From Methanotorris igneus Kol 5 (GTDB taxonomy: Archaea; AGJL01; Methanococci; Methanococcales; Methanococcaceae), in the NCBI RefSeq assembly GCF_000214415.1, contig NC_015562.1, positions 620,001 through 684,000 of the forward strand: DNA of 64,000 nucleotides, read 5' to 3'. This document shows, piece after piece, positions 23,970 through 55,785 of this stretch. Made by a program: the position numbers and the translations under genes. The notes beneath the pieces are model-generated. The model worked only from the letters and a program-made list of their open reading frames with translations. It did not search any database and was not told the DNA's origin. The stretch's first letter is position 1. Each line of letters starts with the position of its first letter.

Positions 23970-24230
23970 GGGGTCTGTCCAATGTGAGTATTGGTGAGTA
24001 AATACCCATATTGGACTTGGGCGTCATCAGCCACACAAGGGTGTCTCTGCCCCTGTCGTGGACATAAAAACCTAACGGTTTTTAAGTTCTCGTCGCTTCG
24101 CTCCGAGATGACCCCAAGCTCCACCCATCTATGTTTTTATCTTTATAAAGTCCTATATAAATATATCGAAAACTCATAAACACACATATCCTCACAAATA
24201 CTCACAAAAAACTAAACAGTTTCAAACGGC
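23970..24230 (-). ncRNA. Stand-alone omega RNA-like element A (no TnpB)
   Basis: On the minus strand it starts GCCGTTTGAAACTG, contains the TCTCG-GAGCGAAGCGA-CGAGA hairpin and AAAACCG/CGGTTTT hairpin, then CTGATGACGCCCAAGTCC, a terminal hairpin (GTCCAAT/ATTGGAC) and CAGACCCC. It is nearly identical to element B at 33981 apart from that copy's MITE. 261 bp with no coding capacity. Its left end lies over the carA 3' end and supplies that gene's final codons. It may be a non-autonomous transposon, a guide RNA source, or both. Confidence 0.7.
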
Positions 24231-25292
24231 ATCTTTTAATTTTATCATCTCATCAAATAAGAACTTAGCATCATGTGGTCCCGGCCCTGCTTCTGGGTGG
24301 TATTGGACGCTCCAAATTGGCAAATTCTTGTGCCTTATCCCTTCAACGGTGTTGTCGTTTAGATTTATGTGCATAACTTCAACATCATCAGGGAGAGAGT
24401 CCTCTTTCGTAGCAAAACCATGGTTTTGAGATGTTATATAAACTCTACCAGTGGTTAAATCTTTAACTGGTTGGTTTCCTCCTCTATGTCCAAATTTGAG
24501 TTTGTATGTTTCCCCTCCTAATGCCAAGGTAATAATTTGGTGACCTAAACAAATTCCAGTTATTGGAATTTGTCCGATAAGTTCTTTTACTGTATTTATG
24601 GTTTCTTTAACCCTAACTGGGTCTCCTGGACCGTTGGATACCAAAACGAAATCTGCCTTATATTCTAAAATTTCATCTGCCTTTGTGTTGTATGGAACTT
24701 GGATAACTTCACACCCTCTCTCAGTTAAGCACTTTATTATGCTATTCTTAACTCCGCAATCAATTAAGACACATCTTGCCTTTTTCTCTCCAATAGGTTC
24801 ATTGATTTTTACTTCTTTTGTAGAGACCATTGGAACCAAATCAATTTCCGACAAATCCTTATGCTCTCTTGCTTTTTTCAATAACTCCTCAATATCATCA
24901 TCACTTATTGGTTCTGATGATGTTTTAATGCAAGCTCTTACAACCCCTTTGTCCCTAATCTTTCTTGTTATAAACCTTGTATCAATATTGGATATGCATG
25001 GGATGTCATACTCCTTCAAAAAATCATCCAATTCTCTGCCAGTCAATTCCCTAACAACAAAACCCTCTGCCTTTATGCCATCTGACTCATACCATTCTTT
25101 CCTAACTCCATAGTTCCCTTCTAATGGGTATGTCATTGTGACTATTTGTCCCTTATATGAAGGATCTGTCAAAATCTCAACATATCCCGTCATACTTGTG
25201 TTAAATACTAACTCTCCCAAAATCTCTCTCTCAGCACCATGACCTTTTCCTTTAAAAACAGTCCCATCCTCTAAAACTAAAACAGCATACAT
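24222..25292 (-). CDS. carA: Carbamoyl-phosphate synthase small subunit (glutaminase)
   Basis: 356 residues. Supplies ammonia from glutamine for carbamoyl phosphate, needed for pyrimidines and arginine. The N-terminal domain begins '[20 protein letters not shown]'; the class I glutaminase domain has the Cys nucleophile in '[10 protein letters not shown]', with His and Glu in '[13 protein letters not shown]'. The final codons GCC GTT TGA belong to the left end of element A, so the native C-terminus was replaced by Ala-Val-stop. carB is not in the window. Divergent from serA, with which it shares a 181-base promoter region. Confidence 0.95.
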
Positions 25293-25473
25293 TTTTCCAC
25301 CAAAGATATTTATTGGGTAGTAATTTTAATAATTTTCATAATTCATAATAACTAATGAATCGATGAAAATTAACTATTTAAATAAGAAGACATTAATCAT
25401 GAAATCAATACATCTTATCGTTTTTATATTTTTTGTTTGATTATTAATAAATCTTGGAATTGGGTGATAAAAA

Positions 25474-27045
25474 ATGGTTAAGATATTAGTAACAGACCCA
25501 TTGCATGAGGATGCTATAAAGATTTTAGAAGAAGTTGGTGATGTTGAAATAGCAACTGGCTTAAGCAAAGAGGAATTATTGGAAAAGGTTAAAGATGCAG
25601 AAGTTTTAGTTGTCAGAAGTGGGACAAAAGTAACAAGAGAAGTTATTGAAAATGCAGAAAAATTAAAAGTTATAGGTAGGGCAGGGGTTGGTGTTGATAA
25701 TATTGACTTAGATGCCGCGACTGAGAAAGGGATTATTGTTGTTAATGCCCCTGATGCATCATCAATTTCAGTTGCAGAGCTAACAATGGGTTTAATGCTT
25801 GCAGCAGCAAGAAACATCCCACAAGCAACGGCATCATTAAAAAGAGGAGAATGGGATAGAAAGTCATTTAAAGGTATTGAATTGTATGGAAAAACACTTG
25901 GAATTGTTGGTTTAGGAAGAATTGGACAACAAGTTGCTAAAAGGGCTCAGGCATTTGGAATGAACATAATTGCTTACGACCCTTACATACCAGAGGAAGT
26001 GGCTAACTCACTTGGAATAAAATTGGTTGATTTAAACACACTATGCAAAGAGAGTGATTTCATAACATTACACGTCCCATTAACACCAAAAACAAAACAC
26101 ATGATTGGAAAAGAGCAGATTAACTTAATGAAGAAAAACGCTATAATAGTAAACTGTGCAAGAGGAGGATTAATTGACGAAAAGGCATTGTATGAAGCAT
26201 TAAAAGAAAAGAAAATAAGAGCAGCAGCACTTGATGTCTTTGAAGAGGAGCCACCAAAAGACAACCCATTATTGACCTTAGATAATGTTATTGGAACTCC
26301 ACACCAAGGTGCTTCAACAGAAGAGGCACAAAAAAGTGCAGGAACAATAGTTGCTGAGCAGATAAAGAAGGTATTGAAAGGAGAACCTGCTGAAAATGTT
26401 GTTAACTTGCCAATGCTTCCTCCTGAAAAGATGAGCAAAATAAAACCATATATGGTATTGGCTGAGAAGTTGGGTAACATAATTATTCAATTACTTGACA
26501 AATCTGTGAGAAAAATAGAGATCGTCTATGCTGGAGAATTGGCTAAAGAGAAAACAGATTTAATAAAGAGGGCATTTTTAAAAGGTCTTTTATCACCGAT
26601 ATTACTTGCTGGAATTAACTTAGTTAACGCTCCAGTTATTGCAAAGAATAGAAACATAAAAGTTGTTGAGGGAACATTGTCAGAGAGTGAATATGGAAAC
26701 GCTATAAAAGTTATTGCAGAAGGGGAGACAGATAAAGTTTCAATCACTGGAACTATTGCAAATGGAAAACCAATGTTATGTGAAATTAATGGATATAAAG
26801 TTAACTTCAGCCCAGAGGGAATATTCTGCGTTATAAAGCACATAGATAGACCTGGCACAATTGGAAGAGTTTGCCTAACCCTTGGAGATTATGGAATAAA
26901 CATTGCTGGAATGCAAGTTGGTAGGGAATCCCCCGGCGGAGAGAGCATTATGTTATTAGATGTTGACCATGTAGTTCCAGAAGAGGTTGTAGAGAAAATA
27001 AAGAAACTTGAAAATATAAAGGATATGAAGGTTATCAACTTATAG
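25474..27045 (+). CDS. serA: D-3-phosphoglycerate dehydrogenase
   Basis: 523 residues, the long type. First step of serine synthesis from 3-phosphoglycerate. NAD site 'LGIVGLGRIGQQVAKRA' (about residues 143-159), substrate Arg in 'VNCARGGLIDE', the catalytic His in 'GTPHQGAST', then an intervening ASB domain and a C-terminal ACT domain ('IDRPGTIGRVCLTLGDYGINI') for serine feedback. GGGTGAT precedes the ATG. Confidence 0.95.
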   Translation: MVKILVTDPLHEDAIKILEEVGDVEIATGLSKEELLEKVKDAEVLVVRSGTKVTREVIENAEKLKVIGRAGVGVDNIDLDAATEKGIIVVNAPDASSISVAELTMGLMLAAARNIPQATASLKRGEWDRKSFKGIELYGKTLGIVGLGRIGQQVAKRAQAFGMNIIAYDPYIPEEVANSLGIKLVDLNTLCKESDFITLHVPLTPKTKHMIGKEQINLMKKNAIIVNCARGGLIDEKALYEALKEKKIRAAALDVFEEEPPKDNPLLTLDNVIGTPHQGASTEEAQKSAGTIVAEQIKKVLKGEPAENVVNLPMLPPEKMSKIKPYMVLAEKLGNIIIQLLDKSVRKIEIVYAGELAKEKTDLIKRAFLKGLLSPILLAGINLVNAPVIAKNRNIKVVEGTLSESEYGNAIKVIAEGETDKVSITGTIANGKPMLCEINGYKVNFSPEGIFCVIKHIDRPGTIGRVCLTLGDYGINIAGMQVGRESPGGESIMLLDVDHVVPEEVVEKIKKLENIKDMKVINL

Positions 27046-27208
27046 AGCTTTTTTTAGTTGAATTCTATTTCTTTATTTTTTACTGCAAAAATCTTTTTTA
27101 GTCTAAATATTTGAAAGAATAAATTAATAACAAAATGATTGCATTGTTGGTTTTAGTTTTGAAGTATCTTTTTTGTAAAGTAATTACGTTAAAATAGAGT
27201 CAAAAATA

Positions 27209-27347
27209 TAGCTGTGTGCGTTAAAATTTGAAATATAATTACAATAAATTCTGTGAAGTTATGGCCATATTTTAAATTTTAAGAAGGAATATTTACTATT
27301 TAAAACCCATCGGGTCATAAATAAGTAATAAATTCCGCACACAGCTA
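27209..27347 (+). repeat. MITE, TAGTCGTGTGCG family (139 bp)
   Basis: Ends TAGCTGTGTGCG and its inverse, flanked by TA on both sides. Core without inserted palindromes, so close to the minimal form of the family. It lies in the 27046-27749 gene-free stretch; the rest of that stretch is AT-rich with no further gene. Confidence 0.85.
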
Positions 27348-27475
27348 TAGATACAATTTTTTAATAAAATTAAAAGGATAAACCGGATCTCATTTAGAAT
27401 TACGCTTAATTTGTCGTTTTTCAGAAATTTTATTTATGCCAAAATATATGAAAAGAATTCCACAAACAACTTATA

Positions 27476-27704
27476 TAGTTGTGTGCGAAATAGTTGAATA
27501 ATCTATGATTATTCAACTTCCCTGCAACCGAAGGTTGCAGTGGATTTTTAAACTTATTTATATATCAATGAATTTTCAAATAACTTTTATTCTTCCTTAA
27601 AATTTGAAATAAGGCATAAATCTTTAAGAATTTACCTACAGTATATTCCAAATTATACGGCAAAACCCAAAGGGTTTTGCCAAATTTTCTAACGCACACG
27701 ACTA
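27476..27704 (-). repeat. MITE with three palindromic modules (229 bp)
   Basis: Ends TAGTTGTGTGCG / TAGTCGTGTGCG, flanked by TA. Reversed relative to most copies. Contains AGTTGAATAATC/GATTATTCAACT (27492-27518), CTGCAACC/GGTTGCAG next to it, and GGCAAAACCC/GGGTTTTGCC near 27660-27681. Confidence 0.85.
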
Positions 27705-27749
27705 TAATTCAACACATAATCAACTTTTGTATGTGTGGGGGTTGGGATT

Positions 27750-28877
27750 GTGAAATACCTAACTTTAAAGGATGCAGTATTTTTGACAATAACTTCTATC
27801 ATTGGTGGGGGGATTTTTGTTTTATCTCCATTAACATATTTGATTGCAGGAAAATGTGCAATATATGGGTGGATTTTGGTTTTGATGATAAGTATGGTTT
27901 TGGTTTTACCATTTGCATACGCAACAACAAAGATAACCAAAAGTGGGGGACCATATAAATACGTGATGAGAATTTTTGGGAAAAAGGTGGGAACAATTTT
28001 TGCATATACACTGTGGTTTGCTGGAGTAACTGCGATCTCAGCAGTTGTATCGTTTTTTAGTATAATATTCAACATCTACTTTAACTTTGAGTATGTAGGT
28101 ATTGTTTTGGTTATATTTTTAACACTCCTTATTATAAATGGTGTTAAGGTCGTAGGGAACTTTTTAAGAATTTTTGGAACTTTAACAGTAATCACTTTAT
28201 TGTTTATAATATTTTCAAATAAATTTGATTTATCAGTTTTTGATGCCAAAGTTAATTTGTTTAAGGTTTTGGTAACGAGTTATTTTGGACTTTGGACTAT
28301 GACGGGTTGGGAAGGGATATCAATACCCTCAGAGGCATTTAAAAATCCAGAAAGGGACATTGGCTATGGCTTGATTATTGGGACATTTATTATCGGAATT
28401 TTGTATTTGCTATATACGTTAGTTGTAATCTCATCAAATATAACTTATAGTGAATTGGGGGATGTTATAGGGGCACTAATCGGGAATAATTCCCTCATTT
28501 GGGTTTGTATTCTGTTGATAATTGGAGGATGTGTATTTAGCTGGCTTTTTTCCTTAGGTTGGATGCCCTATGCTCTGTCCCATGACAAAATATTCATCCC
28601 AAAATTTTCAGATGCATTTGTTAAATTAAGAAAAGGCATTCCCACAAATGGTGTTTTGCTGAATTCGTTTATTATCGCTACCCTCTCTATATATCCATCA
28701 AAAACTTTGGTTGATTTGGGGATGTTTCTAACTTTAATATCCTATTTCGTTTTGTATCTCTCTGTTTTTAAGGAAAAGGTATCGGCATTCAAAATAAAGT
28801 TCGTATCTTTATTGGCAGCGGTAATAACTTTATTAATCATTGCATTTAGAGTTTATTTGTTATTTAATGGAAAATAA
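27750..28877 (+). CDS. APC-family amino acid permease
   Basis: About 375 residues and 11-12 membrane helices. The first helix has 'TSIIGGGIFVLSP', matching the unwound Gly-rich substrate site of APC transporters; 'WEGISIPSEAFKNPERDI' is the family's helix 6-7 region. Probably an amino acid or polyamine uptake or exchange protein; substrate unknown. GTG 27750 gives 'KYLTLKDAVFLT' as the cytoplasmic start; GTG 27735 is an alternative. It is isolated between MITE-rich spacers. Confidence 0.85.
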   Translation: MKYLTLKDAVFLTITSIIGGGIFVLSPLTYLIAGKCAIYGWILVLMISMVLVLPFAYATTKITKSGGPYKYVMRIFGKKVGTIFAYTLWFAGVTAISAVVSFFSIIFNIYFNFEYVGIVLVIFLTLLIINGVKVVGNFLRIFGTLTVITLLFIIFSNKFDLSVFDAKVNLFKVLVTSYFGLWTMTGWEGISIPSEAFKNPERDIGYGLIIGTFIIGILYLLYTLVVISSNITYSELGDVIGALIGNNSLIWVCILLIIGGCVFSWLFSLGWMPYALSHDKIFIPKFSDAFVKLRKGIPTNGVLLNSFIIATLSIYPSKTLVDLGMFLTLISYFVLYLSVFKEKVSAFKIKFVSLLAAVITLLIIAFRVYLLFNGK

Positions 28878-29208
28878 TGACCTTAATATCAAAATCATAG
28901 AAAAGAAATAAAAGAAAAAATTTCTATCCTTGTTTTAGTAGATTGAGTACTCAAGCCCTTAACTTACTTTCTTTTTAGGAATTTTCAAAACCTACTCGTT
29001 ACACTCGTAGAAAGCAAGAAAGATTATACAATCTATTTTTAAATCTAACACACAACTATTAACAAAAATCTTAATTCTCCAAACTTATTTAATATATTTT
29101 AAAATTAAACCAAACCTAAATTACACAAATATCAACAAATAACTAAAATCTCCTAAAAATCTCAATTTTAATCCGAAAATATCAGAAGAGTTAATTAGAG
29201 TTGATTTA
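28878..29208. other. Gene-free spacer after the permease
   Basis: No coding or RNA gene seen. A loose inverted arrangement around 28944-29034 (AGATTG...CAATCT with CTACTCGTTACACTCGTAG inside) may be an older, decayed palindrome element; a similar fragment lies near 41080-41130. Confidence 0.4.
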
Positions 29209-29354
29209 TAGTCGTGTGCGGAATATATACGGCAAAACCTTTGGTTTTGCCATTAATTTTTTAAATAACTTTAGCCCCCTTAAAATTTGAAATAAGGGAT
29301 GAATCTTTAAAAATTTATCAGTAGCATATTTCCAACTTCTAACGCACACGACTA
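29209..29354 (-). repeat. MITE, TAGTCGTGTGCG family (146 bp)
   Basis: Ends TAGTCGTGTGCG with TA duplications. One CAAAACC/GGTTTTG palindrome sits near its left end (29230-29250). Confidence 0.85.
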
Positions 29355-29392
29355 TAATAAAATTAAGAGGCATTACCAAGTGAAGTGAGGTA

Positions 29393-29604
29393 TAGTCGTT
29401 CTACAATTAAATAATGGTTAACATAACTCTAATTTAAATTGGAGTTTTGTTAAACTACCTTAAAATTGAAATTTTATTAGGCGAAAACTCCTGCGGAGTT
29501 TTCGCTGCTCGAACCTTCGGTTCGATTAGGCGAAATCAAAGATTTCGCTGCTCAAACCTTCGGTTTGAAGTTGTAAATATGCTATATTTTTTGTAGAACG
29601 ACTA
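29393..29604 (+). repeat. Second MITE family (ends TAGTCGTTCTACA) with four palindromes
   Basis: TA-flanked 212-bp element. In its middle are four palindromes in a row: GCGAAAACTCC/GGAGTTTTCGC, TCGAACC/GGTTCGA, GCGAAATC/GATTTCGC and TCAAACC/GGTTTGA. The flanks resemble the module-free, more decayed copy at 35273-35387. Confidence 0.8.
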
Positions 29605-29784
29605 TAATGCATCCCTTTGATGAAATCGAAGCGAAGCTTCGAGCAGTGTCCACTGCAACCTATGGTTGCAGGGAAGTTGAATAACGTAGTTATTCAACTA
29701 AATCGAAGATTTCACCTAACCGAACCGTAAGGTTCGATCTGCAAAACCGACAGGTTTTGCTTAACTTTTTAAAAGTTTCATATA
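29605..29784 (+). repeat. Palindrome cluster (ATGAAA...TTTCAT family)
   Basis: Starts near GATGAAA (29619) and closes at TTTCAT (~29780), like 16395-16459. Contains CGAAGC/GCTTCG, CTGCAACC/GGTTGCAG (29653-29671), AGTTGAATAAC/GTTATTCAACT (29675-29699), CCGAACC-type and CAAAACC/GGTTTTG hairpins, and AACTTTT/AAAAGTT. Confidence 0.7.
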
Positions 29785-29909
29785 GAAGCAAGAAAAGTAA
29801 ATCAAAAAATCTAATGTCAATATTAAAAATCCAATAATAACATCAAACAAAATAAAAATAATCCTTACCATAATATTAGGATAGCTCAAAATACACAAAT
29901 GGTGAAAAG

Positions 29910-31520
29910 ATGATTTGTATCGGATTGGAAGGAACGGCAGAAAAAACTGGTGTTGGTGTTGTTACCTCTGATGGGGAAGTCTTATTTAATAAAACTATTA
30001 TTTACACCCCTCCAAAGCAGGGTATCCACCCAAGGGAAGCCGCAGATCATCATGCTGAGACCTTCCCAAAACTTATAAAAGAAGCGTTTGAGGTTGTTGA
30101 TAAGGATGAGATTGATTTAATCGCATTTTCTCAAGGCCCAGGATTGGGGCCGTGTTTAAGAGTAACCGCAACAGCGGCGAGAACATTATCATTAGCATTA
30201 AAAAAGCCAATTATTGGGGTGAATCACTGCGTTGCACATATAGAGATTGGAAAATTAACTACCGATGCAGAGGATCCATTGACATTATATGTTAGCGGAG
30301 GGAACACCCAAGTTATTGCCTATGTATCAAACAAATATAGGGTATTTGGAGAAACATTAGATATTGCAATAGGAAACTGTTTAGACCAGTTTGCAAGATT
30401 CTGCAACCTCCCACATCCTGGGGGACCTTATGTAGAGAAACTTGCTGAAAAAGGAGAGAAGCTTATTGATTTGCCATATACTGTCAAAGGTATGGATATT
30501 TCATTCTCGGGGCTATTAACTTCTGCAATGAGGAGTTATGAAAGTGGGGAAAGGTTAGAGGACGTATGCTTTTCCCTCCAAGAGATAGCATTTTCCATGC
30601 TCACAGAGATAACTGAGAGGGCTTTAGCCCACACAAATAAGCCAGAAGTTATGCTTGTTGGAGGGGTTGCGGCAAATAATCGCCTTAGAGAGATGCTAAA
30701 AATAATGAGTGAAGAACAGAATGTTGATTTCTATGTTCCAGAAAAGCAGTTTTGTGGAGATAATGGGGCTATGATTGCTTGGTTAGGGATTTTGCAATAT
30801 ATGAATGGGAAAAGAATGACATTGGAAGAGACAAGAATCATACCAAATTATAGAACAGATATGGTTGAAGTTAATTGGATTAAGGAAATACCAAAAAAGA
30901 AAAGAAAAATTCCCCCACACTTAATAGGAAAGGGTGCAGAGGCAGATATTAAAAAGAGCACTTATCTAAATTGGGATGTTGTGATAAAGGAGAGAATTAA
31001 AAAAAGTTATAGGATCGAGGAGTTGGATAAATTAATAAGAACAAGAAGAACTGTGAGAGAGGGGAGATTCCTTGCTTTAATAAAGAACTTTGACATCCCT
31101 GCCCCTTATGTGTTTGATGTTGATAGAGACAAAGGTATAATAGTTATGAGTTACATACATGGAAAATTGGCAAAGGATGTTATAGAGGAAGGGGATTTGG
31201 ACTGTTGTTATGAAATTGGGGAAATTGTAGCGAAGTTGCATGAAAACAATATTATACACAATGATTTAACAACATCAAACTTTATTGTTGGGAAAGATGG
31301 GAGAACATACATTATTGACTTTGGGCTTGGAAAGTTTTCTGATTTGATTGAGGACAAGGCGGTTGATTTGATTGTTTTAAAGAAGGCGATTTTAACCACA
31401 CACTACAACAAATTCCAAGAAGTTTGGGAGAAAATCATTGAGGGATATAAAACATATGAACTATGGGAAGAAGTCATTAACCACATGGGAGAAGTGGAAA
31501 AAAGAGCAAGATATTTATAA
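29910..31520 (+). CDS. Kae1-Bud32 fusion (KEOPS tRNA t6A synthase and kinase)
   Basis: 536 residues. Kae1 (about 1-325) transfers the threonylcarbamoyl group to tRNA A37; its metal site is 'HCVAHIE' (His 107, His 111) and its ATP fold includes 'YVSGGNTQV' and '[11 protein letters not shown]'. Bud32 (about 345-536) is a small kinase/ATPase with 'GAEADIKKS', the catalytic loop '[13 protein letters not shown]' and 'IDFGLGKFS'. The fused form is known from methanococci. GGTGAAAAG precedes the ATG. marC follows 12 bases later. Confidence 0.96.
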
Positions 31521-31532
31521 AATGGTGAAAAT

Positions 31533-32162
31533 ATGGACTTAAATTTTTTCATCTATTCTTTTACATCATTGTTTATCATTGTTGACCCGATTGGCTTAAT
31601 TCCAGTATTCCATCTTTTAACATACTACTATTCAAAGGATGAGCAAATAGAAATAATAAAAAGTGCCATTATAACTGCAACAATAACACTATTAATATTT
31701 GCGTTCTTTGGAACGTATATTTTTGATTACTTTGGGATAACATTGGACTCATTCAAAGTTGCAGGAGGCTTATTGCTGTTTAAAATTGCATGGGATATGC
31801 TCCATGCTGAGATGTCAAAAACAAAACACTCTCCAAGAGAGGAAGTCGATATACGTATGGGGGGCGTTGCAGTAGTTCCATTGGCAATCCCTTTACTTGC
31901 AGGGCCTGGAGCTATAACAACAACCATAATTTTAATGGGAAAAGCACAAAATTTGACGGATAAAACAACAGTTATATTGTCGATAATCTCAACTATGATA
32001 ATCTCTGGTTTAATACTCTCTGCATCAGATATTGTTGTGAAAAAATTAAAGGTATCAGGTATCAATGCAATAGTAAGGATTATGGGGCTTATATTAGCGG
32101 CAATATCAGTTCAGATTATATTTAGTGGTGCCTATGGATTAATAAAGGCCATCACTGCATAA
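31533..32162 (+). CDS. MarC/NAAT-family membrane protein
   Basis: 209 residues with about six membrane helices. 'SLFIIVDPIGLIPVF' near the N-terminus and 'VPLAIPLLAGPGAITTTI' in the middle are the family signatures. Archaeal members have been reported as neutral amino acid transporters (SnatA-like), but the role here is unproven. Likely cotranscribed with kae1-bud32. The TAA stop is followed after 6 bases by a MITE. Confidence 0.88.
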   Translation: MDLNFFIYSFTSLFIIVDPIGLIPVFHLLTYYYSKDEQIEIIKSAIITATITLLIFAFFGTYIFDYFGITLDSFKVAGGLLLFKIAWDMLHAEMSKTKHSPREEVDIRMGGVAVVPLAIPLLAGPGAITTTIILMGKAQNLTDKTTVILSIISTMIISGLILSASDIVVKKLKVSGINAIVRIMGLILAAISVQIIFSGAYGLIKAITA

Positions 32163-32168
32163 AAATTA

Positions 32169-32346
32169 TAGTCGTGTGCGTTAGAAATTGGAAATATACT
32201 ATTGGTAAATTCTTAAAGATTTATCCATTATTTCAATTTTTTGGCAAAACCTAAAAGGTTTTGCCGTATATTTTAAGGAAGGATAATGATTATTTAAAAA
32301 TTCATTAATGTATATATATAAGTTTAAAAAATTCCGCACACGACTA
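32169..32346 (+). repeat. MITE with one palindromic module (178 bp)
   Basis: Ends TAGTCGTGTGCG, TA-flanked. GGCAAAACC/GGTTTTGCC sits mid-element at 32242-32266, in the same core position as in 34999-35262 and 43047-44419. Confidence 0.88.
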
Positions 32347-33980: not shown

Positions 33981-34382
33981 GCCGTTCAAAACTGTTTAGT
34001 TTTTTGTGAGTATTTGTGAGGATATGTGTGTTTATGAGTTTTCGATATATTTATATAGGACTTTATAAAGATAAAAACATAGATGGGTGGAGCTTGGGGT
34101 CATCTCGGAGCGAAGCGACGAGAACTATAGTTGTGTGCGTTGTAGTTTGGAAATATGCTGCTGATGAATTTTTAACGGCTGTAAGCCGTTTCAAATTTTA
34201 AGGTGGCTTATTACTATTTGAAATTTATTAAGGTATGAATAAGTTTAAAAAATTCCGCACACAACTATAAAAACCGTTAGGTTTTTATGTCCACGACAGG
34301 GGCAGAGACACTCTTGTGTGGCTGATGACGCCCAAGTCCAATATGGGTATTTACTCACCAATACCCATATTGGACAGACCCC
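33981..34382 (+). ncRNA. Stand-alone omega RNA-like element B, interrupted by a MITE
   Basis: Starts GCCGTTCAAAACTG and ends with a perfect 16-bp-arm terminal hairpin (34336-34351/34360-34375) and CAGACCCC. The hairpin TCTCG/CGAGA (34103-34107/34119-34123) has the conserved loop GAGCGAAGCGA. Without the MITE at 34128-34267 it would be ~260 bp, the length of element A, with near-identical sequence. No TnpB. Confidence 0.7.
34128..34267 (+). repeat. MITE inserted in element B (140 bp)
   Basis: Ends TAGTTGTGTGCG, TA-flanked. It contains AACGGCT/AGCCGTT (about 34177-34193). Its position shows that the RNA-like element was in place before this MITE. Confidence 0.9.
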
Positions 34383-34482
34383 AATATAAAAACATACTCT
34401 TTTGAGATAATGAATAAAAAACAAAAATTCAAAGACTAAAAAACTTAGAACTATTATAAAATTTTAAAAAATGTAAAAGAAT

Positions 34483-47464: not shown

Positions 47465-48094
47465 TTATTCTTTTAAATAGAAAGTCATTTTTTCCTCATT
47501 TAAAATTAGCCCCCTCTTCCACTTAACAAATAGGTAATATTTTTGGTCTTCTTCTAACTCCTTAACAATTCTTTTTGCTATAACTCTAACAATATCCTTA
47601 TGGGTTCTTTCTTCAAAATCTTTGAAACTTTCAAATGGCTTTTTTTCCCTCTCCTCAATTATTTGCCACATGTGTTTTTTTCCAATTTCTGGGAGAAGTT
47701 CTAACATGTGTTTTTTTGGTGTTATGCTTTGACATTTGTTTAAAAAGTTTATAAATCTCTCTTCATTATTTTTAACTGCCTCCATAACTACATATAACAA
47801 TTCAGTTTTTGCAGTATTTGTTAGATCATCATATTTTATCATTCTTGCAACATAATCTACTTTATCTCTTTTCCCCCTTCCGATGTAGACTCTCTCTGCC
47901 AACTCAACCTCTGTATCATCTTTTAAAACCAACTCCATCAACACAAACTGTTTTTCCCCGATAGCTTGAGCAATGGGTTTTCTCTCGTGGATAGGCCTTG
48001 GATCATCAGGATGTCCATAGGGTAAATAATCTAAAACCCATGCATAATCCTCGAAATCTTTCCTTTTTTTAGCTTTAAAATATTTTTTGACCAT
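47465..48094 (-). CDS. DUF655-family protein
   Basis: 209 residues, highly charged. 'DYAWVLDYLPYGHPDDPRP' is the DUF655 signature; the middle contains a helix-hairpin-helix-like segment 'LELLPEIGKKHMWQIIEERE', so nucleic acid binding is likely. The usual archaeal neighbourhood is eL21-rpoF-DUF655-rsmA, which holds here for the first three. Function unknown, probably in translation or RNA metabolism. Confidence 0.88.
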   Translation of the reverse strand: MVKKYFKAKKRKDFEDYAWVLDYLPYGHPDDPRPIHERKPIAQAIGEKQFVLMELVLKDDTEVELAERVYIGRGKRDKVDYVARMIKYDDLTNTAKTELLYVVMEAVKNNEERFINFLNKCQSITPKKHMLELLPEIGKKHMWQIIEEREKKPFESFKDFEERTHKDIVRVIAKRIVKELEEDQKYYLFVKWKRGLILNEEKMTFYLKE

Positions 48095-48413
48095 AATTAC
48101 ACCTTATTATATTAATTTTGTGATATTGTATATATGATGTAAATCTTTAGCTTATGTTTCTCATTTAGGTTAATAAACAAACAATTTTAATTTTAATACA
48201 AATAATTTATTATTGCACATTTAAAATTTAAAACTTAATTAAATAAATTTGCAAAATTTTATAATAGTTTATGTTTAATGACCAGTATATTTTAATAATC
48301 ATTAAGTAAAATTAAAATAACAATTTTAGCATAAAAATTCAAATAACTCGGATAGAACACAAACTACCTTTTTAATTTCATTTAGAATTTTTATAATTAG
48401 GGTAAAAATAGTA
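48095..48413. other. Gene-free spacer between DUF655 and rpoF
   Basis: AT-rich with no recognised gene, promoter or repeat apart from the remnant at its right edge. In many archaea these two genes nearly touch, so the gap is probably secondary. Confidence 0.4.
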
Positions 48414-48450
48414 GGGTTTGTCCGTCGTGAGTTTTTAGGATGTTTTGTGA
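48414..48450 (-). repeat. Remnant of an omega RNA-like right end (element E)
   Basis: Minus-strand CTCACAAAACATCCTAAAAA-CTCACGACGGACAAACCC aligns with the last ~40 bases of the TnpB right end (928-947). Only half of the terminal hairpin remains, directly after the rpoF stop codon. Confidence 0.45.
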
Positions 48451-48454
48451 GTGT

Positions 48455-48775
48455 TTATAAATACTTTGCAACAATTTCTAAGATTTCATCTTTATTTGAA
48501 GGCAAATCTTCCTTATAGTATATAACTCTCAAATCATCGTAATCTTTTGGAAGGATGTCTGCTATTTTAACTGCGTGCTTTTCATCAACCCCAATTTCCA
48601 TTAATTCTTCAACCAACTTTTTCGCATCCTCAGGAGATAACTTTGCAAATTTTTGGAGATAGTCCAATGCACAGCCATGTTCATAAGATAATTCTTCCCC
48701 TGCCCTATCAATCATAATAGCATTTGCTTCTGAGACAGTTATGTATTTTTGACCAATAATTTCTTTTCCTATCAT
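48455..48775 (-). CDS. rpoF: RNA polymerase subunit Rpo4/F
   Basis: About 106 residues beginning 'MIGKEIIGQKYITVSEANAI'. With Rpo7/E it forms the stalk of archaeal RNA polymerase. Helical HRDC-like C-terminal part 'KLSPEDAKKLVEELMEIGVD' and 'ADILPKDYDDLRVIYYKED' are characteristic. ATG 48775 sits 8 bases after GGAGG; TTG 48790 would start before that site. Confidence 0.93.
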   Translation of the reverse strand: MIGKEIIGQKYITVSEANAIMIDRAGEELSYEHGCALDYLQKFAKLSPEDAKKLVEELMEIGVDEKHAVKIADILPKDYDDLRVIYYKEDLPSNKDEILEIVAKYL

Positions 48776-48862
48776 ATATAATCCCTCCAATAACAGAGAT
48801 TAAAATAGTAAATCCAAAAAATAGATAATCTTTATAAAAATTAAAAAAATAAAAATAACAAA

Positions 48863-49159
48863 TTATGCTTTGCAAGGTCTTAAGTGTTGTGGTCTTGCAA
48901 TGATAAGTTTGTATTTTCCTCCATCTCTAACTTTAACGATGAATGCTCTACCTCTTTGCCCAACAACTATTCCTGTTCTTCCATGGAATCTTGGGTGTGG
49001 CATGCCTTTGTGATATGATGGATCTATTACGATGTGGACATAGTCTCCTTCTTTATATTGCTTCAATGCTCTTGTAATTGGGTAGAGGCCTCTTTCTCTT
49101 GGGTGCTTTGAGAGTTTTTTTCTTGTTTTGCTTCTAAATCCTTCACTCCTTTGTGCCAT
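48863..49159 (-). CDS. rpl21e: Ribosomal protein eL21
   Basis: About 98 residues. N-terminal '[20 protein letters not shown]' and '[26 protein letters not shown]' are diagnostic of the archaeal/eukaryotic large-subunit protein. ATG 49159 follows AGGAGG by 8 bases. Upstream member of the eL21-rpoF-DUF655 group. Confidence 0.97.
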
Positions 49160-49386
49160 AACCAATCCTCCTACGTGTTTTTTATTACGCTCTCATCTAA
49201 TTTGAAAATCTCACATTTAAAATTTTCGCTAAATTATAATTACTATTCTTTATCATAACTTTCTAAAAGAAACTTCAAGAAAATTTCAACAAAGATGCAT
49301 TTCACTTTCGTTGGATAGATAAAGGAAGATAGGGATAAGAAGTCCTGCTTCACTTAACCCAGCAGTATGTATCATTTATGATGAAA

Positions 49387-50700
49387 CTAAGAAGTTTCTT
49401 CATCGTGAACTTCTAAAACATCCAATTCTTTGCAGATACATTTTTTATTTAATATCTCGGAGATTGATGGGGAAGTTCTTCCATCATCTCCGCTTATAAG
49501 TTCTTTTATATACAATCCTCCATCACAAAAAATCTTCATTTCAAAATGATTGTCATCTATTTTATGTGCCCAAACTTTATATACCTTACGGATTCTTGTT
49601 AAATCTGCCCTTCTGTGCAGGACTCTCTTTGGTGTTCTTTGGTATATCGTTAAGTTTTCACAGGTTTCAATGACCTTCTCTATGTCTTCATCGGTTATCT
49701 TCTCTTCACATTCAACCAATGCACGGTATGTTTTTTTATGCGGTTCATTTTTGAAGAAAACGACGTCTTTCCTATTTCCATATTCAAGATTTAGAACCTC
49801 TACCATTCCACTCTTATTAACTTCCTCAGCAATTTTATTCAAATCAATTTTCCTTATTTTTGGTTCTTTTATCTCTAAAACAAATGGCCTCCCATTACCC
49901 AACATTCTAACATCAATATCTTCTCTCCCAGCACCGTGAAATTTTTCATTAGTTCCTTTTGTTGCTTTCATGAATGGTTCTGCAATAATCTCTTCAACTG
50001 AGGTTGGATACCTTTTCCCAGTGAAATTGCATTTTTCACATCCCTTTCCTCTACAAAACCTACAATGCCAGTGTGTTTGTGGAATACCTCTGACTAATTT
50101 CCTATACCTACCTTTTATGAATAACGGGTTAACTTGCAAATAGATATCCTTTGTATATGGGTTGATATGGACAACGATATCTGGATTTGTTTTGTCTGGT
50201 TGTTTGTTCATCTTCACAGCGATTATTTTCCCAATTTCTCTCCCAAATTCTTGCCTTATGCTTTCCATATATGGCGTTTCTATTTCCTCTTCTAATTCCT
50301 TAATCTCTTTTGGTATGTGAGTTCCGACCATAAATGTATCAAATTCATACTCTTTCAATAATTCAATTGCTTTGTTTGCCAACTCCTCTATATGGCTCTT
50401 TTCAAAAATACCTCTACACCATGGGCATTCTTCTATTTTCTCTCCTTCTTTAATTTCTTTGATTTTTATCTCTTTTAATCCACTTCTATATAAGCATTTT
50501 AATAATTCTAAGACCTCATCCTTATTACCTTCTCCACTCTCTTCTATTTTTTTTAATAAAGATTCTAATTCCATAGCTTTGACAAGTTTTAATGCCTTTC
50601 CTCTCTCAAAATTGTTTGTGTGTAATAATTTTGCATACAACCTTCCAAAACATCTATGGCATAACGGATACTTTTTTAAGATTTCAATGTTTATCTCCAT
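49387..50700 (-). CDS. pus10: tRNA pseudouridine synthase Pus10
   Basis: 437 residues. Makes pseudouridine 54 and 55 in archaeal tRNAs. The N-terminal zinc-binding/THUMP-like domain has 'CHRCFGRLYAK' and 'CPWCRGIF'; a further Cys cluster 'HCRFCRGKGCEKC' precedes the catalytic region 'HGAGREDIDVRMLG' with the Asp nucleophile; 'YIKELISGDDGRTSPSIS' lies near the C-terminus. Same strand as eL21, ~230 bases upstream. Confidence 0.95.
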   Translation of the reverse strand: MEINIEILKKYPLCHRCFGRLYAKLLHTNNFERGKALKLVKAMELESLLKKIEESGEGNKDEVLELLKCLYRSGLKEIKIKEIKEGEKIEECPWCRGIFEKSHIEELANKAIELLKEYEFDTFMVGTHIPKEIKELEEEIETPYMESIRQEFGREIGKIIAVKMNKQPDKTNPDIVVHINPYTKDIYLQVNPLFIKGRYRKLVRGIPQTHWHCRFCRGKGCEKCNFTGKRYPTSVEEIIAEPFMKATKGTNEKFHGAGREDIDVRMLGNGRPFVLEIKEPKIRKIDLNKIAEEVNKSGMVEVLNLEYGNRKDVVFFKNEPHKKTYRALVECEEKITDEDIEKVIETCENLTIYQRTPKRVLHRRADLTRIRKVYKVWAHKIDDNHFEMKIFCDGGLYIKELISGDDGRTSPSISEILNKKCICKELDVLEVHDEETS

Positions 50701-50861
50701 AGCACCACCAAATTTATTAATATTTATGGCAATATGTTGCTTAGCAAAAATGCATAAATAATTTTCATTAAGTAAATAAAAATTAAAATCTCATCAGAAT
50801 GTAATTAAATACTCTCAAATTTTAATTGAATTTTGTAAGTAACTATAATGAAGGTGATTTC

Positions 50862-52040
50862 ATGATTATCAGTGCTGATTTGCATATCCACTCCAAATAT
50901 TCAGGTGGTACATCAAAGTATATGGACATAGAGCATATATTAAAATATGGTAAATTAAAAGGTTTGGATTTAATAGGGACGGGAGATTGTTTGCATGAAA
51001 AATGGCTAAATGAGATTAAAAACTATAAGGATAAAAATTTATTACTAACCACTGAAATTGAAGATATAAACAGGGTTCATCACCTTGTTTTTCTCCCATC
51101 AATATCAAAAGTTGAAGAGTTAAGAGAAATATTAAAGAGATACTCAAAAAATATTGATGATGATGGAAGGCCACGGGTTTTAATGGATGGAAAGGAATTA
51201 ATTGAGGTTGTCCATGACGTTGGGGGGCTTATAGGAGCTGCACATGCTTTCACACCGTGGACAAGTTTATATAAGTCATTTGACTCTGTTTATGATTGCT
51301 ATGGAAAAAAACCCGACTTCATAGAACTTGGTTTATCTGCTGACACTGATATGGCAGACATGATTAAAGAATTGAGAGATATTCCATTTTTAAGTAATTC
51401 TGATGCCCACTCTTATCATCCACATAGGTTAGGTAGGGAATTTAATCAATTTGAGGTGGATTCTCTTGGAAATTTGGAGGAAAATTTTGAAGAGATTAGG
51501 AAAGCAATAAAAAACAATAAGATTGTTGCCAATTATGGTCTTGACCCAAAACTTGGAAAATACCACCTAACCGCATGCACAAAATGCTATTTAAGGTTTA
51601 AGTTAGAGGATGCAAAAAGATTAAACTTCAAATGCCCCTGTGGAGGGACTATAAAGAAGGGTGTTTTGAGTAGAGTCGAAGAACTCAGCGATGGACAAAT
51701 TATCCACCCAAAATTTAGACCTCCTTACTACAAAATAATTCCATTGGCGGAGATAATAAGTTTATCAACAAAAAGAGGCATTGGAACTCAAACCGTCAAC
51801 AACTTATGGGAAAAATTTATTGAAAAATATAAAAATGAGATAAACGTGCTTATAAATGCTGATATTGAAGAATTAAAAAAAATAAACGAAGATGTTGGAA
51901 ATACTATTGAGTTATTTAGGGAGGGAAAAATCTACATCTATCCTGGTGGAGGGGGAGAGTATGGAAGAATTATGAAAACCCCTCCAAAGATAAAGTGGTA
52001 TGTTATGCAAAATACACTTGATGCATGGCTCAATAGATGA
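50862..52040 (+). CDS. EndoQ-like PHP-domain endonuclease
   Basis: About 392 residues. The PHP metal motifs are 'ADLHIHSKYS' at the N-terminus, 'GTGDCLH', the His in 'GAAHAFTPW' and 'SNSDAHSYHPHRLGREF'. A zinc finger 'CTKC'...'CPCGG' (about residues 245-265) and a C-terminal HhH-like part 'GTQTVNNLWEKFI' follow. This arrangement matches endonuclease Q, which nicks 5' to deaminated bases (uracil, hypoxanthine), a fitting repair enzyme for a hyperthermophile. AAGGTGAT selects ATG 50862. Confidence 0.78.
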   Translation: MIISADLHIHSKYSGGTSKYMDIEHILKYGKLKGLDLIGTGDCLHEKWLNEIKNYKDKNLLLTTEIEDINRVHHLVFLPSISKVEELREILKRYSKNIDDDGRPRVLMDGKELIEVVHDVGGLIGAAHAFTPWTSLYKSFDSVYDCYGKKPDFIELGLSADTDMADMIKELRDIPFLSNSDAHSYHPHRLGREFNQFEVDSLGNLEENFEEIRKAIKNNKIVANYGLDPKLGKYHLTACTKCYLRFKLEDAKRLNFKCPCGGTIKKGVLSRVEELSDGQIIHPKFRPPYYKIIPLAEIISLSTKRGIGTQTVNNLWEKFIEKYKNEINVLINADIEELKKINEDVGNTIELFREGKIYIYPGGGGEYGRIMKTPPKIKWYVMQNTLDAWLNR

Positions 52041-52085
52041 AAACAAAAAAATAATAATTTATAATAATATTTAAACCCTTAATTG

Positions 52086-53084
52086 TTATTTTTCTTTTTT
52101 TCCTTTAAAGAATGGGTTATCCACGATATCTGACTTCTGTCTATGTATTACCTCCATGTGTGGGTAGGCAATTTCAACATCATTCACTTCTTCTAATTTG
52201 CTCAAGATATTTTTAACAATTTTTGTCTTTATAGCTGCCCACTCAAACACATTAACCAAGTATCTGACCTTTATCTCAATACCACTATCTAAAAAACGCA
52301 TTCTTATAACGGGTTTGTCATAAATTTTTGATTTTGCAAAAATTCTTGGCTTATTTTTCCAAATTTCTGCTAATCTTCTCATCTCTTCGCCAACAATTTC
52401 ATCACAAGCCTCAAGAATCAACTCCTCAGCTTTTCTCCAATTGCTCTCATAGGTAATGGTAACCTTAACGCTATCCCATACATAAGGGGATCCTTTTGAA
52501 AAATTAATAACAGGATTCGTTAGTATGTATGAATTTGGTATATTTAAACTTCTTCCTGTTGGTTCTCCGTCAACCTCCCTTAAACTTACATACATTGTAC
52601 CTATCTTATAAACATCCCCTCCACCAATGCCCTTTATGTAAATTCTATCATTAATTTTAAAGGGGTGCGTAAATACAATAGTTAGCCACCCTACAAAATT
52701 CATAATTGGTTTTTGCAAAGCAAGGGTTAAAGCCGCTCCCACAAGACCAAGGGACATCACAAGAGAACCTACATCTTTATAAACAACAGAGATTGCAATT
52801 AAAATAACACCAAACCATGTCGCATATTTAACCACAGAGGCAACGATGGGATATTCCCTTATATCCACTTTTTCAAAATACTTTCTCAATAATTCCAAGG
52901 TTATATCTAAGAATATTAAAGTTCCTAAAATCAATGCAGTCAATATAATAATTTGATTAATATAATCCCCTAACTTTAGCAAATATTGGTAAAAATTCAA
53001 CTTACAGCCCAAATAATACAGAATTCCAAGTAAAATTATAACCTTTGTTATAAACTTGATTCTAAACACTTGGATTTTTCTCAT
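52086..53084 (-). CDS. MscS-family small-conductance mechanosensitive channel
   Basis: 332 residues: three to four membrane helices in the first ~130 residues, the Gly/Ala-rich pore helix 'SLGLVGAALTLALQKPIMNFVG', then the beta domain 'TVFTHPFKINDRIYIKG' and a C-terminal alpha/beta domain. Relieves osmotic pressure on downshock; M. jannaschii has two such channels. Alone on its strand. Confidence 0.92.
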   Translation of the reverse strand: MRKIQVFRIKFITKVIILLGILYYLGCKLNFYQYLLKLGDYINQIIILTALILGTLIFLDITLELLRKYFEKVDIREYPIVASVVKYATWFGVILIAISVVYKDVGSLVMSLGLVGAALTLALQKPIMNFVGWLTIVFTHPFKINDRIYIKGIGGGDVYKIGTMYVSLREVDGEPTGRSLNIPNSYILTNPVINFSKGSPYVWDSVKVTITYESNWRKAEELILEACDEIVGEEMRRLAEIWKNKPRIFAKSKIYDKPVIRMRFLDSGIEIKVRYLVNVFEWAAIKTKIVKNILSKLEEVNDVEIAYPHMEVIHRQKSDIVDNPFFKGKKEK

Positions 53085-53114
53085 TCATGACACCACATCA
53101 TTTAATTGAACTTA

Positions 53115-53174
53115 TAGTCATTTGTGTTATAAATGGCTAAAAACTAATATTCCAAATATTTACGTCTGAGACTA
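53115..53174 (+). repeat. Very short TA-flanked inverted-repeat element
   Basis: TAGTCATTTGTG at the left and ACGTCTGAGACTA at the right, each beside TA, only 60 bp apart. Probably a deletion derivative of one of the MITE families. Confidence 0.35.
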
Positions 53175-53201
53175 TAATTGAGCTGTTAAATAATTGACAT
53201 A

Positions 53202-53340
53202 TAGTTGTGTGCGGATTTTTAGGCTTATTTATACGTCCATGAATTTCAAATAGTGGTTATTCTTCCTTAAAATTTGAAACAACACCTAATTTCTACGAAA
53301 ATTATTGGGATTTAAGTTCAATTTCTAACGCACACAACTA
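53202..53340 (-). repeat. MITE, TAGTCGTGTGCG family (139 bp)
   Basis: Ends TAGTTGTGTGCG, TA-flanked, reversed, no inserted modules. It lies between the MscS and glycosyltransferase promoters, ~67 bases before the latter's start. Confidence 0.87.
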
Positions 53341-53406
53341 TAAATTCTACAACAACTATATATTATAATTCTTGCTTAATTAAATAAAAATCTTTAACGT
53401 GGGATT

Positions 53407-54447
53407 ATGAAAGTATTGATGCCGACCATTTATTACCCATTCATTGGAGGAATAACAATACATGTAGAAAATTTAGTAAAACATATGGATGATTACGAAT
53501 TTCATATTTTAACATATTATAGCAAAGATTACCACCAAAAATATGAGAATGTTGTTGTGCATAAAGTCCCATACATTCCAAAGATTAGGGGATTATCGTA
53601 TATGATCAATGCCTACAAAATTGGGAAGGAAATAATTAGGAAAGAAAAGATAGATTTAATACACGGCCATTACGCATTTCCGCAGGGGGTTGTTGGGGGA
53701 TTGCTAAAGGGAAATTTACCCCACATTTTAACGTTACATGGTAGTGATGTTTTAAAACTTTCAAAATCCATTATTGGAAAACCTTTTTTTAATTATGCGA
53801 TAAGTAGAGCAGATAAAATCATCTGTGTAAGTAAGTTCTTGAGGGATAATTTAGGCAGTAATTTTAGAGATAAAGCAATTGTCATTCCGAATGGTGTTGA
53901 CTTTAACTTATTTTATGAGGGGGATGATTTGGACTACGGTCTTTTTGTTGGTTCCTTTGTTAAGCAGAAGGGTTTGGATGTTTTAATTGATACTATAAAG
54001 GATATTGATTTTAATTTTAAACTTATAGGAGATGGACCATTGTTTAATAAAATAAGGGAAAAAATAGAAAAGGAAAATATGAAACACGTTGAACTATTGG
54101 GGAAAAAATCCCAAACAGAAGTAGCAGAGTATATGAGGAACTGTAGTTTTCTTATCTTGCCATCTATTTCAGAGGGTCTTGGGATGGTTTTACTTGAAGC
54201 AATGGCTTGTGGAAAAGCAGTTATAGCGACAAATGTTGGGGGTATTAGGGAGATTGTGAAAGATAACTACAACGGCTTTTTAATCCCCCCAAATAATCCA
54301 AAAATTTTAAAAGAGAAAATAGAAATATTAATAAACGACAAAAATTTAAGAAGAAAATTTGGTAAAAATGGAAAAAAATTCTCTAAAAACTTTTCTTGGG
54401 AAAATGTGGCAAAGAAAGTAAGGGCTATTTATGAGGAGATGCTATAA
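53407..54447 (+). CDS. GT4-family glycosyltransferase
   Basis: 346 residues, GT-B fold. N-terminal 'YYPFIGGITIHVENL' and 'HILTLHGSDV' (acceptor side), and C-terminal 'LPSISEGLGMVLLEAMACGKAVIATNVGG' with the E-x7-E nucleotide-sugar motif. Retaining transferase, likely for surface glycans or glycolipid; no linked sugar genes are nearby. Starts at ATG 53407 after GTGGGATT. Confidence 0.92.
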   Translation: MKVLMPTIYYPFIGGITIHVENLVKHMDDYEFHILTYYSKDYHQKYENVVVHKVPYIPKIRGLSYMINAYKIGKEIIRKEKIDLIHGHYAFPQGVVGGLLKGNLPHILTLHGSDVLKLSKSIIGKPFFNYAISRADKIICVSKFLRDNLGSNFRDKAIVIPNGVDFNLFYEGDDLDYGLFVGSFVKQKGLDVLIDTIKDIDFNFKLIGDGPLFNKIREKIEKENMKHVELLGKKSQTEVAEYMRNCSFLILPSISEGLGMVLLEAMACGKAVIATNVGGIREIVKDNYNGFLIPPNNPKILKEKIEILINDKNLRRKFGKNGKKFSKNFSWENVAKKVRAIYEEML

Positions 54448-54498
54448 GCAATAAAAATTTTATAAAAACTTTAAACCAAAGTTCAAAGGATGATGTTT

Positions 54499-55473
54499 AT
54501 GATAAAGGTGGTTTATATAACAAAACGTGGTGAAACCCTTGCAAGCAAAATAAAGAAAATTTTAGATTGGTATTACTATGAAAGTGAAGTTATTCACTCA
54601 AAAAATTTTAAAATAACTGGCAATGAGAGGGGATTTATCTTTATAATGGCAATGGGCATTGTTCTGAGGAAGTTTATTGATGAAATCAAAAACGATAAAA
54701 TGAAGGATGCTTTTGTTATCGTTTGTAGCGAAGATGGAAAATACATTATCCCTATTTTGTCTAACCATTTAGGCGGGGGAAATTATTTCTCTAACCTAAT
54801 TGCTAAAAATTTAAATGCGAATGTTGTTTTTACTACTGCTACTGATGTTAATGGGAAAGTTGGGATTGATGAACTATCTAAAATATATTTTTTGGAAATT
54901 CCAAAAAGAAAAGATATTTTAAAAATAAATAGAAAGGTCTTGGATGAGAAAGTTAATTTAATCCTCCCCAAAAATTGGAAGCCCATTGGAAACGTTTCAA
55001 ATACCTATAATGTCTCTTATCACAATAGGAATTATGTTGTTGTTGATGATGACATTATCTTAAAACCAAAAAAAATTGTTGTTGGTGTTGGAGCAAGGAA
55101 AAATATTGAAAGGCATAAGGTTTATTGGGCAATAAAGAAGACATTATTTTTGAGGGATATCCCATTGTGGAGGGTTGACGCATTTGCTACGATTGATGTT
55201 AAAAAGGATGAGAAGGGGATTTTAGAAACAGTTGGGAATTTTAAAAAACCGTTATTTATTTTTAGTAGGAATGAGGTTAATGAGGTTTATAAATTTAGGA
55301 ACGATTTGGAAAAATCAGATTTTGTTTTTAAAACTATTGGTGTTTATGGTGTTAGCGAACCAGTTTCTATTTTAGGAGTTAAAAAATTGGCAAATAAAAA
55401 TTTTAACGAAATTGAATTAATTTTAAGGAAATTTAAGAAGAATGGTGTTTCTATTGCTATATCAGTTGGATAA
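54499..55473 (+). CDS. cbiG: Cobalt-precorrin 5A hydrolase CbiG
   Basis: About 324 residues. Opens the lactone ring of cobalt-precorrin 5A in anaerobic cobalamin synthesis. N-terminal part with 'FIMAMGIVLRKFID' and 'IPILSNHLGGGNYFSNLIA', and C-terminal 'KKIVVGVGARKNIE' and 'VYGVSEPVSILGVKK' are family signatures. AAGGATGAT upstream fits ATG 54499. The other cob/cbi genes are elsewhere. Element C follows 20 bases after the stop. Confidence 0.93.
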   Translation: MIKVVYITKRGETLASKIKKILDWYYYESEVIHSKNFKITGNERGFIFIMAMGIVLRKFIDEIKNDKMKDAFVIVCSEDGKYIIPILSNHLGGGNYFSNLIAKNLNANVVFTTATDVNGKVGIDELSKIYFLEIPKRKDILKINRKVLDEKVNLILPKNWKPIGNVSNTYNVSYHNRNYVVVDDDIILKPKKIVVGVGARKNIERHKVYWAIKKTLFLRDIPLWRVDAFATIDVKKDEKGILETVGNFKKPLFIFSRNEVNEVYKFRNDLEKSDFVFKTIGVYGVSEPVSILGVKKLANKNFNEIELILRKFKKNGVSIAISVG

Positions 55474-55492
55474 ATTTTATATGGGGTCTGTC

Positions 55493-55785
55493 CAACGTGA
55501 ACAATCATAGACAAATGTCCACGTTGGACTTGGACGTCATCAGCCTCAGTTCCCTCTGGGTTCATCGGGAACATATCATCGGTCTCCGTCCCTGTCGCGG
55601 GGACCCCAGCTCCGCCCATAGATTTAATACTCGGTAAAGTCCGCCTCCTTAGGTCTCCAGTATCCACCTTCATCAGAGGCATCATCCTTATAGTTATATA
55701 TATAAACTCATATATAAAAATTTCGAAAACGAAAATACATTAATGTCCAGATTTGTCAATGAAAAATTAAACAGTTTCAAACGGC
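55493..55785 (-). ncRNA. Stand-alone omega RNA-like element C (longer variant)
   Basis: On the minus strand: GCCGTTTGAAACTG at the left end, then GGCGGAGCTGGGGTCC, GTTCCC/GGGAAC hairpin with loop GATGAACCCAGA, CTGATGACGTCCAAGTCC, a terminal hairpin (GTCCAACGTGGACA/TGTTCACGTTGGAC) and CAGACCCC. It keeps the loop found in the TnpB-linked copy (833-844) that elements A and B lack, but not their GAGCGAAGCGA hairpin. No TnpB. Confidence 0.68.

Follow-up and report, generated by a model that had tools for sequence, protein, structure and literature searches.

Stand-alone omega-RNA-like elements of Methanotorris igneus Kol 5 are candidate guide-RNA-only transposons of the IS607 type

Introduction

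A role ascribed to TnpB is to keep its transposon in place through cleavage of sites from which the element has been lost, and stand-alone omega-RNAs, which are thought to act in trans, have been reported near bacterial IscB/TnpB systems. In the IS607 family, the ends of the element carry short phased motifs that are inverted at both ends (PMC6188088). The reRNAs of the IS607 TnpBs of ISXfa1 and ISFba1 consist of a right-end scaffold that runs into the flank as guide, with a TAM corresponding to the left flank (PMC10711439, PMC11061315); in ISXfa1, the crossover is GG, the TAM is GGG and the flanking base is part of the scaffold (PMC10711439). A further group of small archaeal elements, the haloarchaeal PATEs, derives from IS605-type Y1 elements (PMC3119063).

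In this study, three short loci without tnpB (here called solos) were analysed in a 64,000-nucleotide stretch of the genome of the hyperthermophilic methanogen M. igneus Kol 5, hereafter the window (genome 620001-684000 of the 1,854,197-bp chromosome), and were followed through the whole genome and its relatives. With the IS607 family (IS607, ISC1904, ISC1926, IS1535 and ISXfa1) they and their autonomous relatives share a homologous serine TnpA, a dinucleotide core, the absence of target duplication, phased end motifs and a right-end TnpB guide RNA; unlike these elements, the solos have neither tnpA nor tnpB, their core is CC (GG on the other strand) and their presumed TAM is (T)GCC instead of the GGG of ISXfa1. 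The scaffold lies in the right end and runs into the flank as in the reRNAs of ISXfa1 and ISFba1 (RAGATH-18), whereas the solos have a candidate promoter of their own, a 5' stem-loop and no TnpB in cis. Like the bacterial stand-alone omega-RNAs, they are guide-RNA loci without a nuclease gene, but they form mobile archaeal families with defined ends, their own candidate promoter and IS607 biology. The PATEs resemble them in being short and transposase-free, in lacking target duplication, and in having palindromes near the termini and nested small elements (PMC3119063); the solos, however, are IS607-derived and encode a maintained guide-RNA structure.

Results

The shared block CTGATGAYGCCCAAGTCC was present with 0-1 mismatches at the three solos and with 3 mismatches at the TnpB right end of the window. 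Chance alone would give 0.05 matches, and four were not reached in any of 100 shuffles. The terminal hairpin and the AGACCCC end were found at all four loci. The common left end proposed in the sequence-only reading of the window was recovered without mismatch in the 24 kb and 55 kb copies, whereas the 34 kb copy has GCCGTTCAAAACTG, with 2 mismatches; moreover, two of the proposed boundaries had to be shifted, the 55 kb element ending at 55483 (not 55493) and the TnpB right end at 947 (not 948). None of the three loci has space for tnpA or tnpB, as had been stated, and the greater length of the 34 kb copy is due solely to a nested inverted-repeat element of 144 bp. The coordinates are collected in Table 1. 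The prediction that each locus carries a different guide was borne out, all 40 of the 40 right flanks compared being different; within the window, the 20-nt guides matched their own loci and two further sites, each with a single mismatch and without GCC.

Table 1. Features of the solos and of the TnpB1 element (window positions unless marked as genome).
Feature	Position	Strand	Remarks
3' part of tnpB (TnpB1, 426 aa)	1..854	+	start 427 bp left of window; Pfam OrfB/Cas12f1-like TNB
Serine tnpA of the IS607-type element of TnpB1	genome 618955-619581		left of tnpB; genome search
Stem-loop in tnpB zinc-finger codons	590..643	+	homologous to 5' stem-loop of non-A solos; fold z = -5.0
TnpB1 omega-RNA scaffold and right end	733..947	+	model match 798-947, 84.9 bits
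Module in TnpB1 right end, 47-48 bp	module hairpin 751-773	+	
Presumed 20-nt guide of TnpB1 element	948..967	+	from position only, after TnpB biology
Family A solo, 258 bp plus GCC target triplet	23970..24230	-	triplet 24230-24228
Family A TATA box TTTATATA	24154..24161	-	
Family A scaffold, terminal hairpin and right end	23970..24126	-	model match 23970-24061, 100.3 bits
Module start in 24 kb family A solo	24109	-	
Presumed 20-nt guide of 24 kb solo	23950..23969	-	flank unique to this copy
Family A solo with nested insertion	33981..34382	+	
TATA box TTTATATA of 34 kb solo	34050..34057	+	
144-bp inverted-repeat element TATAGTTGTGTGCG...CGCACACAACTATA	34126..34269	+	nested in module
Presumed 20-nt guide of 34 kb solo	34383..34402	+	
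Family B solo, 300 bp plus GCC target triplet	55483..55785	-	triplet 55785-55783; without module
TATA box TTTATATA of 55 kb solo	55711..55718	-	preceded by CGAAATT
Family B 5' stem-loop	55635..55688	-	GCCTC...GAGGC, inner AGGT/ACCT
Family B scaffold	55483..55617	-	model match 55483-55600, 98.5 bits; pair counts
Presumed 20-nt guide of 55 kb solo	55463..55482	-	antisense to 3' end of ORF 54490-55473

The whole-genome covariance-model search suggested in that reading returned more copies than had been noted, namely 41 omega-RNA right ends, 11 at TnpB loci and 30 solo. One model, for which 12 right ends were aligned and which has 16 pairs, 10 of them showing compensatory changes, matched both kinds, with E < 1e-19 for 39 of the 41. 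Seven of the TnpB matches were TnpB1 loci (one truncated, four with TnpA) and four were TnpB2 loci, all without TnpA. The solos were assigned to families from alignments. Family A comprised 16 copies of about 258 bp with a left end, three of them enlarged by a nested insert, and an additional copy at genome 365152 without a left end of its own; family B comprised nine copies of 300-350 bp and a hybrid at genome 775365; family C lies at genome 875254 and 199789, and the remaining solo is a weak model match at genome 841560. The copies within family A are close to one another, as are those within family B, so that much of the shared sequence in this genome reflects common descent. Other genomes of the Methanococcales gave 0-10 model matches each, none near 41. 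Members of both family A and family B were also seen in other genera of the order, with the same site rule and an intact structure, and one genome (G033, 89% complete) holds at least 8 solo B copies together with one broken TnpB and no TnpA.

No Y1_Tnp match was found in the genome, which rules out a Y1/IS605 (PATE) origin of the solos; the earlier description of stand-alone, omega-RNA-like, TnpB-less and non-autonomous elements was upheld, while the likeness to PATEs was replaced by an IS607-type assignment. A serine TnpA (PF00239) of 209 aa occurs in four copies adjoining TnpB1, and its best matches include the solved IS607-type proteins MJ0014, ISC1904 and ISC1926, of which MJ0014 is the nearest. 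The TnpA-bearing autonomous elements have the ends TTCCGAAACTG...AGACCCC. At the left junction, GCC is followed by GTTTGAAACTG in the solos and the TnpB2 elements, and by TTCCGAAACTG in the TnpB1 elements. CC preceded the element at 39 of 39 left junctions, and G stood at -3, before this CC, in 37 of 39 elements (27 of 28 among the solos), against 13.5% of the CC dinucleotides in the window (binomial p = 4e-30, with insertions treated as independent); the solos thus follow (T)GCC at 27 of 28 insertions. When the flanks were rejoined, relatives showed exact empty sites for one family B solo (in a CBS-domain gene), one TnpB1 element and one TnpB2 element, and at an MCP gene. The family B site is the one direct exact empty site for a solo; none was found in relatives for family A, whose carA junction is no more than compatible. 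Because homology runs uninterrupted across the rejoined flanks, the GCC triplet belongs to the target. The CC junctions and the exact rejoining agree with a dinucleotide core and the absence of target duplication. Taken together, these elements are very likely non-autonomous IS607-type elements that bear an omega-RNA. Given the GG crossover and GGG TAM of ISXfa1, (T)GCC suggests itself as a candidate for the TAM, and we hypothesize that the G before CC reflects a preference of TnpB and not of TnpA.

The carA gene (ORF 24222-25292) has the 24 kb solo inserted at its 3' end and takes its stop codon from this element (KDAV-stop, the stop lying within the left end of the solo). A single MCP gene is split in two, its halves lying beside two different IS copies about 1.09 Mb apart (genome 618902 and 1705924), which implies IS-mediated rearrangement or misassembly. 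In addition, the end of a repeated palindrome, GCAAAACC...GGTTTTGCC, precedes several insertions, in the left flanks at genome 1132544, 675483, 1627508, 436159, 805793 and 1605298.

The end motifs are inverted between both ends and spaced by about 10 bp. Family A solos have a TGAG motif twice in each end, at offsets 23 and 33 on the left and 15 and 25 on the right, like the resident TnpA+TnpB1 elements. Family B solos carry GACA/GACG/GAACA-type motifs at 25 and 35 and at 16 and 27, which resemble those of the TnpB2 elements and those of the TnpA+TnpB1 elements found in the order's other family. One TnpA family (L251-L254, 81-83% identical) is associated with GACA-type ends in that other family and with TGAG-type ends in the genome of the window. 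By scaffold, A was nearer to TnpB2, with 54/62 against 40/54 for TnpB1, and B was nearer to TnpB1, with 71/90 against 43/64 for TnpB2, in counts taken from single representatives over short segments. This pattern is suggestive of reciprocal mixing, in which A would combine a TnpB2-like scaffold with TnpB1-type ends and B the reverse.

A double-hairpin module of 47-48 bp occurs in some scaffolds and is missing from others, always at one and the same point, both among solos and among TnpB copies (window 24062-24109, 34102-34125 and 751-773, and 27 further copies). All 30 exact module cores in the genome lie within these elements, and within tnpB the module changes the C-terminus of the protein. 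The 144-bp inverted-repeat element occupies the identical point of three solos (34126-34269; genome 435.9 kb and 574.1 kb), as would be expected if solos move as units, and one nested copy bears a further insert.

The TATA box TTTATATA stands at offset 62-67 of 15 out of 16 family A solos with a left end and of 9 out of 9 typical family B solos; it also occurs in solos of other species, and CGAAA stands upstream in most family B copies. A study of a Methanococcus suggested this sequence for promoters of stable RNAs (PMC5512572), and the solos carry at a fixed position what is, by sequence, a candidate promoter of the archaeal stable-RNA type. Its conservation within one family may be mere descent, yet it is kept across families and genera.

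The family B scaffold (55483-55617 in the window) is made up of a pseudoknot strand GGGGTC, a kink-turn-like stem, the terminal hairpin and the GACCCC end. In solos alone, represented by 25 sequences of the solo B type drawn from several genomes, standard pairs made up 94.8% of cells. Double-changed cells, among them those of helix 74-77/132-135 outside the presumed TnpA sites, numbered 46 against 18.4 in shuffles (sd 3.4) and 2-9 in slid versions, a signal that may partly be inherited in blocks because these sequences are related, and the tool itself warns that related rows inflate covariation. The number of solo B pairs with a double change (7) was not above shuffles (178/500). Since the terminal hairpin overlaps presumed TnpA sites, its conservation alone is no evidence of RNA function. 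The long-range GGGGTY/RACCCC pairing was counted separately because MAFFT alignments with module-bearing rows cannot test it; it was complete (6/6) in 38 of the 42 solos with a recognisable 5' strand and had one mismatch in the other four, and in TnpB2-type copies GGGGTT faces AACCCC, with U-A replacing C-G. The GGGGTY strand was lost in 8 further solos of other genomes.

Furthermore, a covarying 5' stem-loop was found in most non-A solos, with 88.8% of cells paired and 34 double-changed cells against 13.3. Its outer stems are wholly different yet alike in fold (AUGCCUC/GAGGCAU, UUGCCCC/GGGGCAG and UCCCACUUC/GGAGUGGGA), and it is homologous to the zinc-finger codons of tnpB, which fold alike in TnpB1 (z = -5.0) and TnpB2. 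Energy folding alone gave no such fold in solo G001_C7 and one G027 solo, and the stem-loop is absent from family A. The maintained RNA structure of B and C has two domains. A kink-turn-like loop, GATGA/TGA, with a covarying stem was observed in the scaffolds of B (for example 55483-55617), C and TnpB1 and was absent from A and TnpB2; it is possibly an L7Ae site. Rfam returned only tRNAs and one weak match antisense to a tRNA, at gathering thresholds or at E = 1, which rules out a known Rfam family as identity, and the solo RNA is not RAGATH-18.

The resident TnpB1 and TnpB2 have NRQ where canonical TnpBs have DRD, the third RuvC Asp being replaced by Gln. In an alignment of 30 sequences spanning archaeal phyla, R367, Q368, D216 and E295 were invariant and D209 near-invariant; Gln occupied the third position in essentially every clade member having the region, whose RuvC and zinc-finger parts were otherwise conserved. 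Q368 was placed at this position from the motif and a PDB alignment. A TnpB structure predicted with 30 sequences (pLDDT 83.3) matched Cas12f and TnpB structures in the PDB. A clade of archaeal TnpBs has NRQ or DRQ for DRD and an extra invariant Asp, D216, in RuvC-I. Rearranged TnpB catalytic sites are a known phenomenon, and the active site may be dead or rearranged; the Gln makes the nuclease activity of the resident TnpBs uncertain. In ISFba1, the RuvC active-site residues that were mutated are D194, E290 and D371 (PMC11061315).

Discussion

The distribution, boundaries, empty sites, promoter sequence and maintained RNA structure of the solos were computed directly from the genomes. With a candidate promoter, a conserved guide RNA and no protein gene, each solo looks able to move by, and to program, borrowed proteins, each time with a different guide. 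We consider it fairly likely that the solos are non-autonomous IS607 omega-RNA genes which TnpA would move and TnpB would read, both in trans; that the solo omega-RNA functions in trans is, taken by itself, a probable reading of the sequences. As judged from the ends, the insertion sites and the biology of the family, the serine TnpA of the autonomous copies would recognise the phased motifs of the ends and release the element in circular form, and a crossover at the CC after TGCC would then insert it anew. The candidate promoter would start an RNA through the 5' stem-loop (except in A), the scaffold, the pseudoknot and the terminal hairpin, and past GACCCC into host sequence. Bound by this RNA, a resident TnpB would be directed to the site in its element-free form, (T)GCC and the next 20 or so bases, so that a site that had lost the element would be cut (and recopied) or occupied. 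The transcription, the TnpB binding and the effect on the target are the steps that we infer. It had been proposed that the solos are either non-autonomous elements or a dispersed guide supply; these alternatives are not exclusive, and the evidence favours both.

Several observations weigh against this explanation, including that families A and B are close copies, that A lacks the 5' stem-loop, that GGGGTY is missing from those eight solos elsewhere, that the solos of G033 coexist with one broken TnpB and no TnpA, and that the resident TnpBs lack the third RuvC Asp. The solos might instead be plain MITE-like IS607 elements in which the omega-RNA is a functionless passenger left by deletion of tnpA and tnpB. 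IS607 mobilisation requires only TnpA and the ends (PMC6188088), the solo ends fit TnpA-type motifs, the copies are young and similar, and some scaffolds elsewhere have decayed. Nevertheless, the compensatory changes in helix 74-77/132-135 and in the 5' stem-loop fall outside the end motifs, the promoter offset is fixed, and A and B persist across genera with their structure intact, which makes a mere passenger rather unlikely.

The Gln at the third RuvC position in a region otherwise conserved would also fit nuclease-dead, TldR-like TnpBs that occupy and silence chromosomal sites with the solo RNAs as a dispersed guide supply. The guides, however, match the DNA beside each insertion, in other words the vanished empty site, and not another host gene as those of TldR systems do, and the invariant second Asp, D216, may restore a rearranged catalytic site; we regard such silencing as improbable. 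It is more improbable still that an unrelated structured RNA, such as a C/D-box sRNA (GATGA/CTGA boxes), happens to be mobile. The kink-turn-like GATGA...TGA of the scaffold and the UGAUGA of the 5' stem-loop recall such boxes, but Rfam offered no family for this RNA apart from the tRNA-related matches, and the same RNA forms the right end of 11 TnpB loci.

What is new in these elements is the combination of guide-RNA-only transposon families with a candidate promoter, a maintained RNA structure and a motif-constrained target site. More tentatively, and at somewhat less than an even chance, the solos may constitute a stable selfish class of long-lived RNA-only families, which TnpA would move and TnpB would hold in place in trans and which would reprogram themselves at each insertion, with mixed scaffold and end types and, in most of those outside family A, a 5' domain from the zinc-finger stem-loop of tnpB. 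This stem-loop suggests that the protein gene itself encodes part of the guide RNA, and the limits assigned to omega-RNAs would then have to take this into account. About 30 natural guides whose targets are known are available in this genome, together with a testable motif preference and several TnpBs for pairing. If guide-only elements use TnpB protection in trans, the RNA itself would be the selfish unit, and from there the separation of effector and guide loci known from CRISPR-Cas12 could plausibly be approached.
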